From Planctomycetaceae bacterium (lineage in GTDB: Bacteria; Planctomycetota; Planctomycetia; Planctomycetales; Planctomycetaceae), in NCBI GenBank assembly GCA_021732845.1, contig JAKFUF010000049.1:1-64000 (forward strand): a stretch of DNA of 64,000 nucleotides, in the 5' to 3' direction. A program made the position numbers and the translations under genes. Positions 30,638 to 41,947 of the stretch are shown one piece after another (the stretch's first letter is position 1; each line of letters begins with the position of its first letter). Below the pieces are notes generated by a model, which worked only from the letters and a program-made list of their open reading frames with translations, was not told where the DNA came from and searched no databases.

Positions 30638-31228
30638 TCAATCCGGCGCACAGGGCACGGAGATCACCAAACCGGCCGCACGCGGGTCAGTGCTGGTCCG
30701 CCGCGGCAGATGGCACTTGAGACACTCCGAGGTCAGCAGGATCAGTCCGGCATGACGGTAAACGCCACCCTTTGCCAGTTCGAACTCGTGATTGCCGCTG
30801 GCCAGCGCCGCGACGGCCTCTTTCTCAAAGTCGTTCTGCGGGTTGTGGTCCACATTCATCGCCTTGGCGTTGACCACGAGCCACCGCAGCTCGACTTTCT
30901 GACGTTTCCCCAGTTCCTTAAAGACGGTCTTGAGCGTGGCGGCGGGGATGGCCAGCCCCTCGTCCTCGCGATAATACTCGTGATGCACGACCTGCAGGGT
31001 GGCGTGCATCGCCTCGTGCAGCAGCCGTGCCCGGCCACGGGCCGCCTCGACGGTGGGGACTTCCGTCACCGGTTGGTCGGTCGCTTCTTTGTCGGCGGCA
31101 TCGCGGGCGGAGTCCACCGCCGGCTGTGCCACGGCCGGTTCGCTGACGATTCCACCCGCGAATGTCCACACGAAAAGTCCTGCCGTCAGCCCGAACGCCA
31201 GCAGGCGCGGAAGCGAGTTGCGTTTCAT
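30638..31228 (-). CDS. DUF3365/Tll0287-like c-type haem protein, copy 1
   Basis: A 196-residue exported protein with signal peptide (LLAFGLTAGLFVWTFAGGIV). It matches the DUF3365/Tll0287-like haem-sensor pattern: ARLLHEAMHATLQVVHHEYY, then VELRWLVVNAKAMNVDHNPQ, FEKEAVAALASG and a c-type haem site, CLKCH. This fold is PAS-like and often serves as a redox sensor, alone or fused to kinases. It is a tandem paralogue of the gene at 31289-31861, with 60 bases between them. No partner kinase is adjacent. Confidence 0.8.
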   Translation of the reverse strand: MKRNSLPRLLAFGLTAGLFVWTFAGGIVSEPAVAQPAVDSARDAADKEATDQPVTEVPTVEAARGRARLLHEAMHATLQVVHHEYYREDEGLAIPAATLKTVFKELGKRQKVELRWLVVNAKAMNVDHNPQNDFEKEAVAALASGNHEFELAKGGVYRHAGLILLTSECLKCHLPRRTSTDPRAAGLVISVPCAPD

Positions 31229-31288: not shown

Positions 31289-31861
31289 CTATTCCGCATG
31301 CACGGGGATGCGAATGATCAGTGCGGCAAATTTCTGTGTCTTGGTGGGCGGAAGGAACGGGGTGGTGTGGCAACTGACGCAGCCGGCCCCCAACGGGATG
31401 GCACCCGCCCGCTGAAAGAACCCGTCTTCCACCTGCTCGTAAGAATCCTTGCCGCCGACGATGGCCGAAACGGCACGCCGCTCGAACGGATCATTGGGCT
31501 CATGCTCGACGCTCATCGGCTTGGTGTTGACCGAAATCCAGCGGGCGCTGATCTTGAGATCCTGCTCGACGTCTTCAAAAACATCCTCCAGCGCGCGGGC
31601 TGGCAGCACCGCCCGATTGGTGTGGAAATAGTGCCGGTGCATCGTCTCCAGTGTCGAGGCGTAGACGTTGTGCATCACCTCCGCCCGGTCGCGCGCGGTC
31701 GCCACCGAAGTCCGCGCCTTCTCAACAGCCTCGGCCTCCGCCTTGGCTTTTGCGGCTTTTCTGTCCTCCGCTGGCGACTGTGCCTGCAAAGCCCAGGAAA
31801 CACCACAGACGAGCACCATGAACAGCATGGCGCACCCAAATCCCATCATTCGAGTTTTCAT
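31289..31861 (-). CDS. DUF3365/Tll0287-like c-type haem protein, copy 2
   Basis: A 190-residue exported paralogue of the next gene. It has a signal peptide (MMGFGCAMLFMVLVCGVSWA) and an Ala/Lys/Glu-rich helix. Core blocks are AEVMHNVYASTLETMHRHYF, ISARWISVNTKPMSVEHEPN and FERRAVSAIVGG, and the haem site is GAGCVSCHTTP. The two proteins share order and spacing of every block, so they arose by duplication. It is the first gene of a probable three-gene transcript that includes the small membrane protein. A role in periplasmic redox sensing or electron transfer is inferred from the family. Confidence 0.8.
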   Translation of the reverse strand: MKTRMMGFGCAMLFMVLVCGVSWALQAQSPAEDRKAAKAKAEAEAVEKARTSVATARDRAEVMHNVYASTLETMHRHYFHTNRAVLPARALEDVFEDVEQDLKISARWISVNTKPMSVEHEPNDPFERRAVSAIVGGKDSYEQVEDGFFQRAGAIPLGAGCVSCHTTPFLPPTKTQKFAALIIRIPVHAE

Positions 31862-32450: not shown

Positions 32451-35400
32451 CTAATTGGCCACTTTCCCGCGTTCATCCTGCGTAAAGATCCCTTCGGGAA
32501 TTTGCAGTTCAAAGTCACTGTCGGTGAACTTGGGACTGATCTCCCAATCCTGGAACGTGACGTGGTACTGCCAGGAAATCGTGGGTTCCTGCTTGAGTTT
32601 GGCCTTCTCGGCACTGACGTTCCAGGACGTATAGACGCCGGTTCCCGGGAGCCACGGGCCGTCGGTGCCGGTACGGGTGAAATCAGCGGTTTCGGTGAGG
32701 GTGTATTCGTGCCACGTTTCCTGGCCCTCGAAACGGATTGCGGCCCCGCGGCTGACGGGGATCCAGTCGTGCTCGGGGTCCAGCAGCAGTTGTCCCCGGT
32801 AGCCACTGCCGTTGCGGACCACCGGTTCCGCTTCAACACGCACCAGCTCGCGATCTTCCAGTTTCTCACGGCCAACGATTTTGTAGCGGCCGGAGCCAAG
32901 TTCTTCCGAAAGCAGCGTGCTGAAGTAGTGCATGAAGTATCTGCGCGGGTCGACCTCCATCGGGATGCGACTCTTGTCGGGACCGATGTAGGCCCAGTCA
33001 AATTTGGTCTGTCCCCGGAGTACCGTGGTTTGCTTGCCGTCAAACACGGCCAGTTCCCGCTGTTGGAAGACGTCTGTAGTGCCGATCCTTCCCGGGCGGC
33101 CGCCGTCTTCCGAGGAACGAATGCGGCCTTTGTCGTCGACGGCGAAGGTGGTTGTGATACTCCGCGAAAGTTCCGGGCCTTCGTTGTCAAAGCCGGTTCT
33201 CTGCTTGATGTTGGCGGTGGATTTGACTCGAAAATTTTGGACTTTGGCCTCGGCCTTTTTCAATTCGGCGACAATCTTGGCCAGCTCAGAGTTGGCCAAC
33301 TTGGTCTCGGCGACGAGCGCGTCCTGAGCTTGAATGATCTGCTTCAAGGACAATTTTTGAGCTTCGAGTTTCTCCGCTTCGGTCTGAGTTTTGGGTGGCT
33401 CTTTCGTGGCGACTGCTTCTGCAGGGGCCGTCTTCGCCGCCTGACCATCCTCGTTCTTCTCATCCCGCGGCACCTGCACGATGAGCGTGTCGTCGTCTTC
33501 ATTCACGATGGCATAGCGTGCTTCCGTTCGCGGTCCTTTTTCCCCCAGACGAGCCGCGCGGCTGCAGAGATTGAAACCACCCTGGCGGTCCAGCCAGTCC
33601 TGGCTCAAGTCCATGGCGGCGTCGGTCAGCCCCTTGGGGACATGCAGCTCGAAAACACCTGGCTTGTCCTTGACGTCCTGAAAGTAACCGCGCCACCGCA
33701 AGTGTGGCTCAGCCGGCGACGACCCGTAAAACTCCAGATTGGCGGAGGTGTGCGGGCTTCCGTCCGCGTTCAGGACCTTCGCCGTGAGTTTGACCGAAGC
33801 CACGGGTGCAAAATTGATTTCCAGCGATTCTGGCACCGGCTCTCCCGCCTTGACCTGCGCAAAGGTCGGCAGATAGACGGTCGGCAGTTTGATCCCACGC
33901 TGCTTCCAGGCTCCCAGATCCCCGTGATCCCGCAACCGCACGTCGACGGGATTCTTCAGCGAAACGGGTGGCAACTCATACCGACCTTCCGCATCCGTCA
34001 GCACCCGCAACAACGGGCGTTCCTTGCCGCCATAGACCCCATCTTCACCGTCGCCCTGGACCGCGACTTGTGGCACACCCTTGCCCTGGGCATCCACAAC
34101 GCGCCCGCGAACGCGCGTCCCCCGCTCCAGTTTGAGCGGCTTTTGCTCGCCGTAGTCGCGGCTAACGACGCGAGCCACGCCAACGGCGTCAGCCGGCAGG
34201 AAATACAGCCGGTGTTGACGATCGGGAATGCGAACTTTGAACCGCCCAGCGGCATCCGTCACAGTGATGGGCGTGCGTCCCAAGTACTCCGGGTACTGCT
34301 CGGCAACCAGCACGGGAACGCCAGCCTTCGGCTTGCCGTCTGGCCCCAAGATCTTTCCCGTGACTTCATGACCACGCTTGATCCGCTTCGTTCCCAGGTT
34401 TGCCTGCAACCGCTCGGGGTCGTTCAGCAGCCGTTCATCCAGATCCCAATAGCCGAAGGAACGTTCCACCACAAAGTCGGGATGAGTAACGACCTGCTCC
34501 AGCACGCAATTCTGTTTTTGGCATTCGAGTGGGAGCGGCAGGGTGTAGCGGCCCTCGGCGTCGGTCTTCAGGCGACGGCTGACCAGCGGCCGCAGCGTTC
34601 CGTCAGGCTCGACAGTCGACATCCGCTTCTGCCAATTGCCGTCGTAGTAGCGCAGTTCCACCTCGGCCCCCGCAACCGGTTTGCCGCCATCGGCATCCAC
34701 CACCTGCGACACCAGCAGTGGTTTGTCCGTGGCCGCGGGGCGTTCATCCACTGGCCTGGTCGGCGCAGTGCCGCCAGGGGCAGGCTGGGCAGCCTGTGCC
34801 ATGCTCGTGCGGGAGACAGGCTGGCAGACCGCCAGCCCGGCCACCAAGACCAGCGCTCCGAACAGCGAACCGGCCGCGAGCCCAGACCGCAGCGGCGCGT
34901 GGCTCCGGGATCCGTCAAACATCGTCCGTACCCGATGCTCCAGGTTGCTGCCCTGTGCCATCGCCACCGCCAGCAACGGCACGCCAGCAGGCTGGCGGCA
35001 CATCCGAGCCACTTCCAAGAGCTGGGCGGCATAGTCGGAGGCCCGCTCGCCAGCATGCACCACCACGTCATCGCAGGCCAGTTCGCGTTCCAGACGCAGG
35101 CGGTTCAGCGCCCACCAGGCCAGGGGATGGAACCAGTAAAAGGCACACGCCAGACGACCGAGCAATTGGAAAATCACATCGCCTCGCTGAACGTGTGCCA
35201 GTTCGTGGAGCAGCACGGCCCGTTGCAGGGGTTCGCTCCAGTCCCGCGCCTGTGTCGGCAGCAGGACCACCGGCCGGAAGATTCCCGACGTCAGCGGAAC
35301 GAACGGCTGCGCATGCTCCCGCAACTCCACGGCACGCAAGAGGCCCAGTCGCTGCCGCTGTTCGTCGGCGTAGGGCTGCCATCCCGCCATCCGTTGAGAA

Positions 35401-35936
35401 CGCCACGACAACTGGCAGGTGCGATAGATTCCCATGCACAGTCCGGCGAGAAACAAGAGCGTCCCGCTCAGCCAGATCGCAGACACTGCCACAGGCACGC
35501 CCAGCCTCCAGAACGACGGTTGCTGCAGTGGAATTTGACGGTCTGGGTTGAAGGCTCGCACCAGCTCATCAATGTTGGACTTCTGAGCGGCCTTCGTCTT
35601 ACCACGCTCCGCGTCCGGGACATCCGTCATAAAGGCGGGTGACGCATTTTGGGGAAGCGCCTGGTTCGGCCCATTGGCGGCGAGTGCCTTTGGCGCAACT
35701 GGCTCAGGCAGCACCGAGACCTCTGGCAAAAGCGGCAGCCGCCAGGCAGGCAGGACCAGCGACAGCAGGGGCAAAAGCAGGAGTCCGAGCAGCGTCAGGC
35801 TCCACAGCCGGTGGAGGAGGGCCGCCGACGTGCGCTGCATGAGCCACGCCGCGAGGCAGGCCACGAACAGCAGCAGCGTGCCCTTGAGGGCAGCGTCCAG
35901 AATGATCCGGGACAGCAGATCGCACAAGGTCAGCAT
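32451..35936 (-). CDS. BlaR1-type M56 metallopeptidase with carboxypeptidase-regulatory-like domains
   Basis: A 1161-residue membrane sensor-protease. The N-terminal M56 domain has several membrane segments and the zinc motif HELAHVQRGD near residue 240, with ELACDDVVVHAG as the downstream Glu helix. A further membrane segment lies near 345-365. Four carboxypeptidase-regulatory-like beta-sandwich repeats follow, for example PLLVSQVVDADGGKPVAGAE and TRVRGRVVDAQGKGVPQVAV. A coiled coil (about 840-910) and a final beta-rich LolA-like domain end the protein. Its ATG overlaps the blaI stop codon. By analogy, ligand sensing triggers cleavage of the BlaI-type repressor. The outside domains are unlike penicillin-binding domains, so the signal is probably not a beta-lactam. 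Confidence 0.9.
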   Translation of the reverse strand: MLTLCDLLSRIILDAALKGTLLLFVACLAAWLMQRTSAALLHRLWSLTLLGLLLLPLLSLVLPAWRLPLLPEVSVLPEPVAPKALAANGPNQALPQNASPAFMTDVPDAERGKTKAAQKSNIDELVRAFNPDRQIPLQQPSFWRLGVPVAVSAIWLSGTLLFLAGLCMGIYRTCQLSWRSQRMAGWQPYADEQRQRLGLLRAVELREHAQPFVPLTSGIFRPVVLLPTQARDWSEPLQRAVLLHELAHVQRGDVIFQLLGRLACAFYWFHPLAWWALNRLRLERELACDDVVVHAGERASDYAAQLLEVARMCRQPAGVPLLAVAMAQGSNLEHRVRTMFDGSRSHAPLRSGLAAGSLFGALVLVAGLAVCQPVSRTSMAQAAQPAPGGTAPTRPVDERPAATDKPLLVSQVVDADGGKPVAGAEVELRYYDGNWQKRMSTVEPDGTLRPLVSRRLKTDAEGRYTLPLPLECQKQNCVLEQVVTHPDFVVERSFGYWDLDERLLNDPERLQANLGTKRIKRGHEVTGKILGPDGKPKAGVPVLVAEQYPEYLGRTPITVTDAAGRFKVRIPDRQHRLYFLPADAVGVARVVSRDYGEQKPLKLERGTRVRGRVVDAQGKGVPQVAVQGDGEDGVYGGKERPLLRVLTDAEGRYELPPVSLKNPVDVRLRDHGDLGAWKQRGIKLPTVYLPTFAQVKAGEPVPESLEINFAPVASVKLTAKVLNADGSPHTSANLEFYGSSPAEPHLRWRGYFQDVKDKPGVFELHVPKGLTDAAMDLSQDWLDRQGGFNLCSRAARLGEKGPRTEARYAIVNEDDDTLIVQVPRDEKNEDGQAAKTAPAEAVATKEPPKTQTEAEKLEAQKLSLKQIIQAQDALVAETKLANSELAKIVAELKKAEAKVQNFRVKSTANIKQRTGFDNEGPELSRSITTTFAVDDKGRIRSSEDGGRPGRIGTTDVFQQRELAVFDGKQTTVLRGQTKFDWAYIGPDKSRIPMEVDPRRYFMHYFSTLLSEELGSGRYKIVGREKLEDRELVRVEAEPVVRNGSGYRGQLLLDPEHDWIPVSRGAAIRFEGQETWHEYTLTETADFTRTGTDGPWLPGTGVYTSWNVSAEKAKLKQEPTISWQYHVTFQDWEISPKFTDSDFELQIPEGIFTQDERGKVAN

Positions 35937-36328
35937 TATTTCCCCTCCGCCCGCGCCTGTTGAATGAGAGCCGCCATCCGGTCCAGATCCGCCTGTTCCA
36001 ACTTTTCGGCTGAGACATCGAGAATGGCCGCCATGGCATCGGAGGCCGACCCGGCAAAAAACACATCCATCAGCTTGCGCAGCGCCGAACGGCTGGCCGC
36101 CTCGCGCGACTGCGTGGCCCGGTAGACATACCGCTTGCCATCCTGCCGGTGCTTGAGCAGCCCCTTCGCCTCCAGGTGCCGGATCATCGTCCGCACGGCC
36201 GAATAGCTCGGCGGGTCGGCAATCTGTGCCAGCACCTCGCCCACGGTTGCCTCCCCCTGCTGGTGGACGACATCCATGATCTGCCGCTCGCGGCGGGCCA
36301 GATCATTCATCGGCTGCCTCTTCGCCAT
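35936..36328 (-). CDS. BlaI/MecI/CopY family repressor 1
   Basis: A 130-residue winged-helix repressor: RRERQIMDVVHQQGEATVGE is helix 1-2 and SYSAVRTMIRHLEAKGLLKH the recognition region. The dimerisation part follows, with KRYVYRATQSREAASRSAL. Such dimers block a promoter until cleaved by the partner BlaR1 protease. The gene overlaps the M56 gene by one base (TAATG). A promoter with an overlapping dyad lies 60-100 bases upstream. Confidence 0.95.
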   Translation of the reverse strand: MAKRQPMNDLARRERQIMDVVHQQGEATVGEVLAQIADPPSYSAVRTMIRHLEAKGLLKHRQDGKRYVYRATQSREAASRSALRKLMDVFFAGSASDAMAAILDVSAEKLEQADLDRMAALIQQARAEGK

Positions 36329-38008: not shown

Positions 38009-38665
38009 TCATTCCAATCCGGGGGCGGGCGGAAACTGTTGCCCAAGTACCTCCCGCAGGCGCAGGAGAACTCGTGATTTTGCCACGCGGACTGCTCCCG
38101 GGGTCATTTCAAGGTCGATGCCGACATCGCGGGCGGCGCGGCCTTCGACCACCATGCCCCAGAAGGCGAGCCACGTGCGGTCTTGAAACTCACCGCGGAT
38201 GGACTTGAGAGCCTCCTGTAGGTTTTCGGGCAAGGGACGCTGGTTGACGGATTCATCAATGGCCCGCAGGACTTCGGCGTTGGGGATCTGATTGAGGCGC
38301 TCGCCCGCCTCGGTGCCACCGGCGGCGTTCGGCTGGCGCACCTGCCGGCGACCATGGTCGCGAACTTTGTTCCGAGCAATTGTGAGCAGCCACCCCCGAA
38401 ATGTGTCGGAATGTGTCTCCTTCCGAAACCGGTCGAGGTGCGTGGCGACCGCCGTGAACACTTCCTGCAAAATGTCCGGGATGTCCTGTTCGGCCACACC
38501 CCAGCGGCGGCACCAAGTAGCGACGAGGGGCGCGTAGTCCCTGACCAGTCGCTCCCAGGCGGCGGGATCAGCGCTGCGCGCTGACGCCAGCAAGTTCCAT
38601 GATGTGGAGCCGGCGGGACCGGATCGGCCTGCTGAGTCGGCTGGGTGGGCACGGTCGACGGTCAT
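38009..38665 (-). CDS. ECF-type RNA polymerase sigma factor
   Basis: A 218-residue sigma-70-family protein of the extracytoplasmic-function type. Region 2 contains WERLVRDYAPLVATWCRRWG and DIPDILQEVFTAVATHLDRF, with FRGWLLTIARNKVRDHGRRQ as 2.3-2.4. Region 4 contains RTWLAFWGMVVEGRAARDVG and MTPGAVRVAKSRVLLRLREV. It directs polymerase to a specific promoter set. Its ATG overlaps the stop codon of the kinase gene (ATGA at 38662-38665), implying tight translational coupling. In many planctomycete pairs a sigma gene precedes a kinase; here the order is reversed. Confidence 0.94.
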   Translation of the reverse strand: MTVDRAHPADSAGRSGPAGSTSWNLLASARSADPAAWERLVRDYAPLVATWCRRWGVAEQDIPDILQEVFTAVATHLDRFRKETHSDTFRGWLLTIARNKVRDHGRRQVRQPNAAGGTEAGERLNQIPNAEVLRAIDESVNQRPLPENLQEALKSIRGEFQDRTWLAFWGMVVEGRAARDVGIDLEMTPGAVRVAKSRVLLRLREVLGQQFPPAPGLE

Positions 38666-40623
38666 TCGCCCACCGCCTTCTGCCGGCGCTGGGTGAGCAC
38701 GCTGATCACAACAGTGATCGCCAGCAGCAACAGCGAAATTGTGCCCATCAAAATGACCGCTCCCCGCAGCCCACTGCGCGTGTTGTCGATCTCCCGGTCC
38801 AGAGGCCGGACGATCTTGAGCACGCCCACCACCTCGCCAACCTTCCAGTCCTTCTTGGGACTTTGGCCGGCCGGATGGTTGTGACAGCCGATGCAGCTCT
38901 GCTCGATCAGCCGTGGCGTAAAATACAGCAGTTTGCGGCGGCCCTCCTGGGTGATGAACCGCGCGTATTCGACCGGGTCCTGAGCCACGCCGCTCCGCGG
39001 CTCCAGCAGCCGCAGGGCGTCACGCTCATGTTCATCCTGTGGCCCGCCATCGGCCCGGCCGGGCCAGGGATGGCTGCTGAAGACCCGCACCTGCATTCCC
39101 GGATTGCGGCGGCTGATCCTTTCGCCCAGGTCGATGGCGAATGTGGCGGGCAATGGCAGTGCTGGGTGAACGGTGCGGTACTTCTCGGTGATGCTGATCT
39201 TGCTCACCTGGGGATTGATGTCCTCGATTTCCTCACTATAAAACCGCCAGACTTCGTCCAGCATTTTGGTTTCCCGCCGGGCGCTCTCCAGGGCGGTCTG
39301 CTGCACAAACACTTCCGAGAGGCTGGAGAGATACCACAGCCCGCTGGCCGAACCGACGATCACCGCCGCCAGCACGCCGATCGCCAGCGGATAGCGCCGG
39401 CTCCACCGCAGTATCCGGCCCACTGGTCCCATCGGCCTGGCCAGAATCGGCTGCCCGTCGAGCCAGCGCTGCAAATCGTCCCGCAGGCTTCCGGCCGCTT
39501 GATACCGCTGCGTCGGTGCCTTGTTCATGGCCTTCAGACAAATCGTGTCGAGTTCCCGCGGTACCCGTCCCTGCAGGCTCCACGGCGGCCGTGGCTCATC
39601 TTCCAGCACCTGCAACAGCAGCAATCGACCCTGTCCCTGAAACGGGCGGACGCCGGTCAACATTTCGTACAGCACCACTCCCAAACTGTAAACATCGCTG
39701 CGGGCGTCGACCCGGTGCGAAGCCCCGCCCGCCTGTTCCGGCGACATGTAGGCCGGTGTCCCCATCACCCTGCCGTCAGAGGTCATGGTCAGGTCGCCGC
39801 TCTCCCGCTTGGCGAGCCCAAAGTCCATCAGGTGAACCTGGCCCTCACGGTCCAGCAGGATATTCGAGGGCTTGATGTCCCGATGAATCACCCCCTGTTC
39901 GTGGGCGTATTGCAAGGCGTTAGCGATCTCTCGCACGACGCGGGCCACTTCGCGCGGTGGCAGCGGGCCGGTCTTCAGGCGTTCTTCGAGCGTCGTGCCA
40001 TCGACATACTCGCAGACCAAAAACCAGACGCCGTCTTCGGTCTGACCCGTCTCGTAGAGGGCAATGATCGCCGGATGCTTGAGCTGCGCCGCACTGCGGG
40101 CCTCGCGCAGAAACCGCTCGATCTCGTCCTCGGTGGCGACGTTTCCCGCCCGCTGGACCTTCAGGGCCACGAGCCGCTGCAGACGCGGATCCCAAGCCTT
40201 GAAGACGTAGCCGAACGAACCGACGCCCAGTTCCGCCTGCAGCTCGAACCGGTCGAGCTTGACCGGCCCCGCCAACAGCCGCCGCGCCAGGTCGCGGCCC
40301 GCGTCGGCGGCGATCCGCGGCAGCCAGCCGGACTTGCCCAGCGTCGCCGCCACCAACGCCTGCAGTTCCGCCTGATCTGCGGAGGGACATTCGTCGTAGT
40401 CTCGCTCCGGCACACACGACATCGAGGACGAGATCTGCCGCAGTTGCTCCGTCAGTGGGTCCGCGGTCAGTGGGTCCCCGGCGGCGTCCATGGAATCCAA
40501 CTGCCCCATGCAGGCGGCGCAGGTTTCCACATGCGTGGCGACCGCCTGCCACTCCTCGCCAGCCATGCGGCCAACGGAGAACAACCGCAACGTCTGCAGT
40601 TCGGGACAGGATGTCTCAGGCAC
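38662..40623 (-). CDS. Ser/Thr kinase with anti-sigma-like zinc motif and extracytoplasmic DUF3365-like haem sensor
   Basis: 653 residues; GTG start with GAGGAGG six bases upstream. Residues 6-38 hold C-x24-H-x3-C-x2-C (HVETCAAC at 31-38), the zinc anti-sigma pattern. The Hanks-type kinase domain spans about 125-390: glycine loop GVGSFGYVFK, Lys155, HRDIKPSN 247-254, DFG 267-269 and APE-like SPEQ. A membrane segment at ~411-433 leads to an outside domain (434-615) of DUF3365/Tll0287-like type. That domain has a haem site CIGCH at 577-581 and is followed by a second membrane segment at 621-643. All kinase catalytic residues are present. It overlaps the ECF sigma gene, so a redox or ligand signal sensed by haem may control the sigma factor (inference). 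Confidence 0.92.
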   Translation of the reverse strand: MPETSCPELQTLRLFSVGRMAGEEWQAVATHVETCAACMGQLDSMDAAGDPLTADPLTEQLRQISSSMSCVPERDYDECPSADQAELQALVAATLGKSGWLPRIAADAGRDLARRLLAGPVKLDRFELQAELGVGSFGYVFKAWDPRLQRLVALKVQRAGNVATEDEIERFLREARSAAQLKHPAIIALYETGQTEDGVWFLVCEYVDGTTLEERLKTGPLPPREVARVVREIANALQYAHEQGVIHRDIKPSNILLDREGQVHLMDFGLAKRESGDLTMTSDGRVMGTPAYMSPEQAGGASHRVDARSDVYSLGVVLYEMLTGVRPFQGQGRLLLLQVLEDEPRPPWSLQGRVPRELDTICLKAMNKAPTQRYQAAGSLRDDLQRWLDGQPILARPMGPVGRILRWSRRYPLAIGVLAAVIVGSASGLWYLSSLSEVFVQQTALESARRETKMLDEVWRFYSEEIEDINPQVSKISITEKYRTVHPALPLPATFAIDLGERISRRNPGMQVRVFSSHPWPGRADGGPQDEHERDALRLLEPRSGVAQDPVEYARFITQEGRRKLLYFTPRLIEQSCIGCHNHPAGQSPKKDWKVGEVVGVLKIVRPLDREIDNTRSGLRGAVILMGTISLLLLAITVVISVLTQRRQKAVGE

Positions 40624-40713
40624 GCGGGCCTCCTCTGCGGACGCGGGCAGGGGATGGGCAGTTCCAGTGATGATTGCGAATAATCATCCGGCCTTTTGTC
40701 GACCTCCACCATT

Positions 40714-41226
40714 CTACAAGTCCGGCTCGTCCGCCACCTGCACCAGGGCCGCCAAAATGTCCAGCGTCGAGACGATGCCGCGGAGGCGCTGGTTGTCATC
40801 CAGCACGAGCACGCGGTGGCGGTGATGGTCGCACATGATGCGGGCCACTTCCAGCAGGGATGTCTCCTCCTGGACCACGGAGAGTTCCCGGGTCATGTAG
40901 TGCGACACCAGTTCCTCGGCGCTGCTCATCGCCGTGCGCGTGCCGAGCATCCGGCTCAACTCTTCCCACTCCGCCTGCAGCGTGGGGGAGGCTCCCCGTT
41001 CGGCAGCTTCCCGAAGGCGTGTCGTCTGCACGGGGATGATGTCCGCCAGTGACAACAAGCCCACCACGCGGCCCTCTGCCGCCACGACGGGCGCACCGGA
41101 AATCTGCTGTTCCAGAAACACGCTGGCGGCATGGGCGATCGTGTCATGCTCGTGCAGCACCAGCAGCCGCTCGGTCATCACATCCCGCGCTGTCAACGAG
41201 TCCAAGCGTCCTGGCAGTAGCCCCAT
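40714..41226 (-). CDS. CBS-domain pair protein
   Basis: A 170-residue cytosolic protein made of two CBS domains (about 12-65 and 105-165): ARDVMTERLLVLHEHDTIAH, SGAPVVAAEGRVVGLLSLAD, SHYMTRELSVVQEETSLLEV and VLVLDDNQRLRGIVSTLDIL. CBS pairs usually bind adenosine nucleotides and regulate partner proteins. No catalytic domain is attached. It lies 22 bases after the LON-domain gene and 90 bases before the haem-sensor kinase, on the same strand, so it may share their transcript. Confidence 0.9.
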   Translation of the reverse strand: MGLLPGRLDSLTARDVMTERLLVLHEHDTIAHAASVFLEQQISGAPVVAAEGRVVGLLSLADIIPVQTTRLREAAERGASPTLQAEWEELSRMLGTRTAMSSAEELVSHYMTRELSVVQEETSLLEVARIMCDHHRHRVLVLDDNQRLRGIVSTLDILAALVQVADEPDL

Positions 41227-41248: not shown

Positions 41249-41947
41249 TCAGTTCAAGCTGAATTGCGCTTTCGACGCGGCCGATCCGGCAGGGACCCCG
41301 GCGGCCAGACAGGCCCGTTTGAGCTGCATCGCCATCAGCTCGCTGCGCTGGTCGACGTCGACCTCCTCCAGGATCTGCTGCTTGGTTTCGGCGTCGGTCC
41401 GCAGCAGTGCCGCCATGATATCGCACAAAATCCCCAGCGGAATCGCCGACTGCATGAGCGTGGCGACGAGCGACCGCACATCGGTTTGCTGAAACAGCCG
41501 GTGCAGCCCCAGCAGCAGTTCATGCCGCCGGGCATCGCGGTCGATCAGCCCGTCGCGCGGATAAAAGTCCTTGTAGAGTTCCAGCCGCCCGACACGGTAG
41601 GGCGTGTCTCCCGGAACCTCTTCGATCACCACTGCCCGAAACAGGCCCCGCAGGATGATGTTGTACCGGCCGTTGGGGAGCTTCTCTTCGGCGGCAATTT
41701 CACCCAGGCAGGTCATTTCGTGAATGGCGGGGCGGTCATCCGCTTCCATTTCCCCGTCGGGAAGCGGCAATGCCATGGCGATCAGCCGCTCCCCGCGCAA
41801 CGCATCCTCGGCCATCTGCCGGTAGCGTGGCTCAAACAGATGCAGCGGCAGCGACATCTGCGGGAAGAGAACGGTGTTGGGCAGCGGAAACAGCGGGGCG
41901 CACCCGGAAAACCGGGCGGGATCGAAAACCGTGGAGGGCGTCGTCAT
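41249..41947 (-). CDS. LON peptidase substrate-binding domain protein
   Basis: A 232-residue protein consisting of a Lon N-terminal (LAN/PUA-like) domain only: PLFPLPNTVLFPQMSLPLHL, FEPRYRQMAEDAL and GRYNIILRGLFRAVVIEE. No AAA or protease domain follows. Such stand-alone proteins are widespread; their role is unclear, with substrate recognition for proteolysis one suggestion. It is the first gene of a same-strand run with the CBS protein, kinase and sigma factor. Confidence 0.9.
   Translation of the reverse strand: MTTPSTVFDPARFSGCAPLFPLPNTVLFPQMSLPLHLFEPRYRQMAEDALRGERLIAMALPLPDGEMEADDRPAIHEMTCLGEIAAEEKLPNGRYNIILRGLFRAVVIEEVPGDTPYRVGRLELYKDFYPRDGLIDRDARRHELLLGLHRLFQQTDVRSLVATLMQSAIPLGILCDIMAALLRTDAETKQQILEEVDVDQRSELMAMQLKRACLAAGVPAGSAASKAQFSLN

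Follow-up and report, generated by a model that had tools for sequence, protein, structure and literature searches.

A putative heme-sensing Ser/Thr kinase with an anti-sigma-like zinc module, paired with an ECF sigma factor in Planctomycetes

Results

A transmembrane kinase gene overlaps an ECF sigma gene

The DNA analysed here, called the window throughout, is a stretch of 64,000 nucleotides on contig C5 of a 9.25-Mb planctomycete genome assembly. Two genes on its reverse strand, encoding a transmembrane Ser/Thr kinase and an extracytoplasmic function (ECF) sigma factor, share four nucleotides. Their features and the two genes preceding them are as follows.

38009..38665, reverse strand: ECF sigma factor gene, 218 aa; sigma-70 region 2 (Pfam E=4e-14), with D61-x2-D64-x2-Q67 in region 2.2
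38662..38665, reverse strand: ATGA overlap of kinase stop (TGA) and sigma start (ATG), implying translational coupling; kept in many homologues
38662..40623, reverse strand: transmembrane heme-kinase gene, 653 aa, GTG start, ribosome-binding site GGAGG at 40629-40633
40426..40623, reverse strand: zinc-anti-sigma-like N-terminal module, residues 1-66, putative ligands C6, H31, C35 and C38
39490..40245, reverse strand: PknB-like Ser/Thr protein kinase domain, residues 127-378 (Pfam Pkinase E=6e-53)
39322..39390, reverse strand: predicted transmembrane segment 1, about residues 412-434
38803..39306, reverse strand: Tll0287-like (sCache_heme) domain, predicted extracytoplasmic, residues 440-607 (Pfam E=9e-18)
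38881..38895, reverse strand: CIGCH, c-type heme attachment motif, residues 577-581
38695..38766, reverse strand: predicted transmembrane segment 2, about residues 620-643
40714..41226, reverse strand: CBS-domain protein, just upstream of the kinase and possibly in one operon with it
41249..41947, reverse strand: LON substrate-binding-domain protein, upstream of the kinase

A sequence-only reading of the window had described a single 653-residue protein that joins a zinc motif, a kinase, two membrane segments and a DUF3365-like domain with CIGCH, its stop codon overlapping the ATG of a sigma gene. The open reading frames and Pfam searches bear out every part of this description, including the ATGA at 38662-38665. 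The interval assigned to it, 38009-40665, holds these features, but it extends roughly 40 bp beyond the GTG start, which GAGGAGG precedes.

From the N-terminus, the kinase runs in the order zinc motif, Pkinase, transmembrane segment, Tll0287 domain with CIGCH, transmembrane segment. The first motif is exact (C6-x24-H31-x3-C35-x2-C38), and all motifs of a Hanks-type kinase are present: GVGSFG, K155, H247-R248-D249 and D267-F268-G269. A fold search with the full model matches the kinase domain to PknB (Z 35, 44% identity). The sCache_heme profile PF11845 scores 65.6 bits against a cut-off of 24.1. Arginines and lysines flank the inner, cytoplasmic side of both membrane stretches, which span about residues 411-434 and 617-643, so the heme domain should lie outside; in the sequence of this extracytoplasmic part we found no cysteine beyond CIGCH. 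The CxxCH motif and the family to which the domain belongs suggest that it carries a covalent c-type heme.

At least 23 of 24 orthologues of the sigma factor retain D61, D64 and Q67, the residues of the DxxDxxQ motif. Because it keeps this motif, the sigma factor would be expected to bind polymerase unaided and hence to need inhibition, for which the zinc module is a candidate. Four residues, T21-S22, T88 and T164, are invariant among the orthologues and could be phosphorylation sites. The window sigma falls below the cut-offs of TIGR02989 and TIGR02984.

The CBS and LON genes hold no conserved place beside homologues of the kinase pair in the neighbourhoods compared. Farther along the reverse strand of the window, at 30638-31228 and 31289-31861, two adjacent genes encode small secreted CxxCH proteins; at least one of these scores above the Tll0287-like cut-off, making it a stand-alone heme-Cache protein about 7 kb from the heme-kinase. 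Between them and the pair, 32451-36328 on the same strand encodes a 1161-residue membrane protein that, read by eye, contains a peptidase-like HExxH-type stretch. A small BlaI/MecI-like regulator adjoins it; together, again by eye, they look like BlaR1 and BlaI enlarged by additional domains.

The pair is conserved across Planctomycetes

Homologues were sought in 170 genomes from the order and in 392 from the phylum. Full-length relatives of the kinase occur in about 25 of the order's genomes, and several other families have them as well. Scanning contigs with the whole kinase returned generic kinases and one true homologue, since such a scan keys on HRDxKPSN and DFG. Ten residues are invariant in 21 aligned homologues: C6, H31, C35, C38, K155, D249, D267, C577, C580 and H581. 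The N-terminal module is otherwise variable among these proteins despite its fixed ligands, and in one additional homologue His replaces C6.

An ECF gene adjoins the kinase in 30 of 31 homologous loci, so both the linkage proposed in the sequence-only reading and, with the invariant cysteines and histidine above, its CxxCH extend to the family. The 31 include one locus (L014) cut by a contig end, whose kinase lacks its N-terminus. The sigma gene lies downstream on the same strand in 27 loci, upstream in two and divergently in one; many of the loci with a downstream gene preserve the 4-bp ATGA. In the non-adjacent case, genome G022, an ECF homologue with 48% identity lies on another contig. Linkage that persists while gene order is reshuffled points to a functional pair and not to a merely inherited neighbourhood. 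In the stretches examined around two heme-kinases without the zinc motif (L147; G067, L394), no ECF gene adjoins. The first of these (G271:C1:526500-536500) encodes a kinase-TM-heme protein with neither zinc module nor neighbouring ECF gene. The kinase-sigma signalling pair is real and conserved, and its members are probably dedicated to each other.

The zinc module resembles ECF anti-sigma factors

Does the N-terminus resemble known inhibitors of sigma factors? Alone, the N-terminus of the window kinase gave no match to zf-HC2 in a profile search; 14 of the 21 homologues match it, the best at 5e-7. When a profile of the N-terminal family was run against all PDB sequences, ECF anti-sigma factors came out on top (DdvA 4.7e-5, ChrR 5e-3), followed more weakly by RslA at 0.14 (PDB entry 3hug, which we take to be RslA) and RsiW at 0.3. 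AlphaFold places helices at residues 9-16, 22-34, 36-47 and 56-69, with moderate confidence over residues 1-50 (pLDDT 62-81) and low confidence beyond (below 50). Foldseek and VIA-align searches with the full kinase model matched only kinases and gave no match for the N-terminal fold, because the kinase domain filled the search. The earlier proposal of a zinc-anti-sigma N-terminus is thus supported by the family profile, which finds solved ECF anti-sigma factors, and by the expected short helices, predicted with moderate confidence; structure searching did not confirm the fold.

The genome offers a second view of the module. It yields 143 matches to kinases and 87 to sigma factors, and we read 109 of the kinases, deliberately including those that neighbour an ECF gene and taking the rest by score, so that they are not a random sample. 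H-x3-C-x2-C precedes the kinase domain in seven of these 109, all seven within 800 bp of an ECF gene, and in none of the 84 kinases without ECF linkage (Fisher p=1.6e-5); 18 further ECF-linked kinases lack it. The sigma gene is downstream in the window pair and upstream of the other six motif-bearing kinases. In other genomes, five paralogues of the ECF factor are followed by kinases that have the zinc motif but lack the heme domain. Across the motif-bearing kinases here and these paralogous pairs elsewhere, the module thus recurs in Planctomycetes as a partner of ECF sigma factors, and the window version adds a c-heme input to it.

The N-termini of ECF-linked kinases in this genome have a median length of 137 residues, against 75 for the others. 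They are of several different-looking types, and perhaps represent several kinds of sigma-binding module.

A rare upstream element is shared by relatives' operons and the gene of a Tat-exported protein

In 10 related loci the pair adjoins a gene for a Tat-signal protein of about 520 residues, divergent from the kinase in seven. The family is predicted to be all-helical, has invariant histidines and occurs in 93 of the 170 genomes of the order (for example, L153:7318-8874); the window's own genome has a member as well (L401, G000:C152:6996-8570). Searches of Pfam and NCBIfam gave no family for the protein, and comparison with PDB folds gave no match either (best E 0.19); its predicted structure is all-alpha (pLDDT 84).

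An element, TGTAACG-N6-CGTT, lies 57-119 bp ahead of the kinase start in 12 of the loci read and 200-304 bp ahead in three others. It was first spotted by eye and then tested, simple dyad counting having missed it. It also stands about 75-195 bp ahead of the Tat gene, and in three genomes (G027, G026 and G036) kinase and Tat genes diverge and each is faced by its own copy. The longer form TGTAACGN6CGTTMT occurs once in the whole 9.25-Mb genome, on contig C152, where it lies 105 bp ahead of the Tat gene; eleven relatives have one to three copies each, mostly at kinase-operon or Tat genes. Among genomes with a readable Tat upstream region, 21 of 22 with the kinase-ECF system have the element at the Tat gene, versus 3 of 27 without it (Fisher p=1e-9, relatedness ignored); the contrast holds within the genera g10 and g51. 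The three exceptions could reflect assembly gaps, or could favour a separate regulator.

A secreted CxxCH protein is preceded by the element in G050, G027 and G026, and in G048 with one mismatch; the element was not found at this gene in G036, and four out of four genomes that lack the system have none there either. In G078 it accompanies a distant paralogue. Secreted squalene-cyclase-like proteins with CxxCH (L397:4-972, L399:1242-2273) have the element upstream in several system-bearing genomes.

Several kinase loci, the window's own included, lack the element upstream. We found none upstream of 40623 or anywhere in the 64-kb window. Autoregulation, for which the sequence-only reading pointed to the regions upstream of 41947 and 40623, is therefore not supported here; in relatives the element is a candidate for it. 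The Tat gene is a probable target of the system, to judge from the sequence upstream of it.

Discussion

The DUF3365/Tll0287 domain has recently been renamed sCache_heme. In the study that did so, a signalling-type member without an axial Cys binds NO and releases it slowly, and a stand-alone member looked redox-like (PMC12889525). The heme domain of the window kinase likewise lacks the axial Cys of redox-type members, which makes NO the leading ligand candidate.

We propose the following model, to which we give an even chance: the protein is a trans-envelope heme-kinase that holds, and then releases, its cognate ECF sigma factor for a very small regulon. Outside the membrane, a heme domain with covalent c-type heme would sense a small ligand or redox state, NO being the first candidate. 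In the cytoplasm, the N-terminal zinc-binding helices would hold the sigma factor encoded by the overlapping cistron inactive at the membrane; motif, homology and linkage all point to such binding. A signal crossing the two membrane segments would bring about kinase dimerisation and autophosphorylation, as in PknB-like receptors, and release would follow once either the sigma factor or the N-terminal region of the kinase itself is phosphorylated. The freed sigma factor, with its intact polymerase-contact motif, would then switch on very few genes. Those predicted from their common, rare upstream element are the Tat-exported protein, the secreted CxxCH protein of some genomes and, for many relatives, their own kinase-sigma operon, the sigma factor being the putative reader of that element.

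Is the element a promoter for this sigma factor? AAC and CGT are hallmark boxes of ECF promoters (PMC8103513). In the element they lie 7 nt apart within a partly palindromic sequence whose centres are 11 bp apart. Ordinary ECF promoters space the two by about 16 nt, and by this measure the boxes are too close for ordinary polymerase geometry. The partial palindrome makes a separate dimeric regulator a serious alternative: the element would be its operator, controlling the kinase-sigma operon and the Tat gene, and the sigma factor would have its targets elsewhere. This alternative rivals only the regulon part of the model, and we consider it nearly an even bet. The inverted-repeat character and short gap speak for it, as do the genomes that have the element without the system and a sigma-A-like TAnnAT that overlaps the element at kinase operons. 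Set against these are the neighbourhoods, where no regulator gene is conserved, and the close tracking of the kinase-ECF system by the Tat-gene element, even within genera.

A second alternative concerns the step of inhibition. The zinc module may merely bring the sigma factor to the kinase, phosphorylation then being the on/off switch and sequestration playing no part. EcfP/PknT and EcfK/PknS are demonstrated cases of direct ECF sigma phosphorylation, every homologue aligned has an intact kinase, and the invariant Thr and Ser residues of the sigma factor are possible sites. Yet the N-terminal module resembles inhibitors by profile, and the sigma factor already has, in DxxDxxQ, the charge that ECF43 sigmas gain by phosphorylation. 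For the latter reason EcfP-type activation was set aside; holding and release by the kinase would fit this sigma factor better, and we regard the docking alternative as unlikely. Least probable is a heme domain that serves electron transfer or redox buffering while the kinase answers something else: stand-alone Tll0287-like proteins are thought to be redox-related, and the window has two such genes 7 kb from the pair, but here the domain is fused between the two membrane segments of a kinase and, with no Cys besides CIGCH, is like the signalling class (PMC12889525).

How does the heme-kinase, so understood, compare with known systems? The planctomycete groups ECF59, ECF61, ECF62 and ECF217 place an ECF sigma gene beside a Ser/Thr kinase gene, usually with no separate anti-sigma gene, and outside ECF43 the groups carry a DAED-like charged motif in region 2.2 (PMC8999054). 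By description, the window pair shares this pairing; the literature we found on these groups mentions neither a c-heme sensor nor a zinc-anti-sigma N-terminus, both of which the window kinase has. ECF43 (EcfP/PknT, EcfK/PknS) also combines a Hanks kinase with an ECF sigma factor. Its sigmas, however, lack DxxD and are activated by phosphorylation, whereas the window sigma keeps DxxDxxQ, its partner has an inhibitor-like N-terminus, and it does not show the uncharged region 2.2 with phospho-Thr by which ECF43 is defined.

With the zf-HC2 proteins ChrR, RslA, RsiW and DdvA the kinase has in common the N-terminal HxxxCxxC module, predicted to be helical here, as well as ECF linkage and profile similarity. 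Those proteins are not kinases, whereas here a kinase and a heme domain are coupled to the output. The sCache_heme sensors have the same extracytoplasmic Cache-like CxxCH domain between membrane segments. The fusions surveyed were to histidine kinases, methyl-accepting chemotaxis proteins, GGDEF/EAL proteins, cyclases and phosphatases, with no Ser/Thr kinase and no sigma factor system among them (PMC12889525); the window protein is a Ser/Thr kinase. PknB-type receptor kinases share its kinase fold and sequence, but their sensor is PASTA, and the window kinase differs in its c-heme Cache sensor, second membrane segment and anti-sigma-like N-terminus.

ECF-kinase pairing in Planctomycetes is thus already known, and what is new is a variant, the c-heme anti-sigma-kinase version. 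We found no description of a zinc anti-sigma module or a c-heme sensor on planctomycete ECF-linked kinases, although an earlier report is possible in Jogler 2012 or the 2021 ECF reclassification. Taken to its full extent, the idea becomes a tentative and rather doubtful one: a single receptor would join an outer c-heme sensor of NO or redox state to two cytoplasmic parts, a zinc anti-sigma domain and a Ser/Thr kinase, would exemplify a third mode of ECF gating (phospho-gated sequestration), and would serve a very small regulon through an element whose boxes are about one helical turn closer than in known ECF promoters.

For the planctomycete ECF-kinase pairs, most of which still await a mechanism, one question is how a sigma factor with an intact polymerase motif is kept off without an anti-sigma gene. 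An inhibitor-like zinc module within the kinase, here found in ECF-linked kinases only, is a direct and testable answer, and one that may extend to many paralogous pairs. The c-heme sensor feeding a Ser/Thr kinase and a sigma factor would be an input-output pairing new to the surveyed sCache_heme family, and the Tat gene and its DNA element supply a candidate target for assays.
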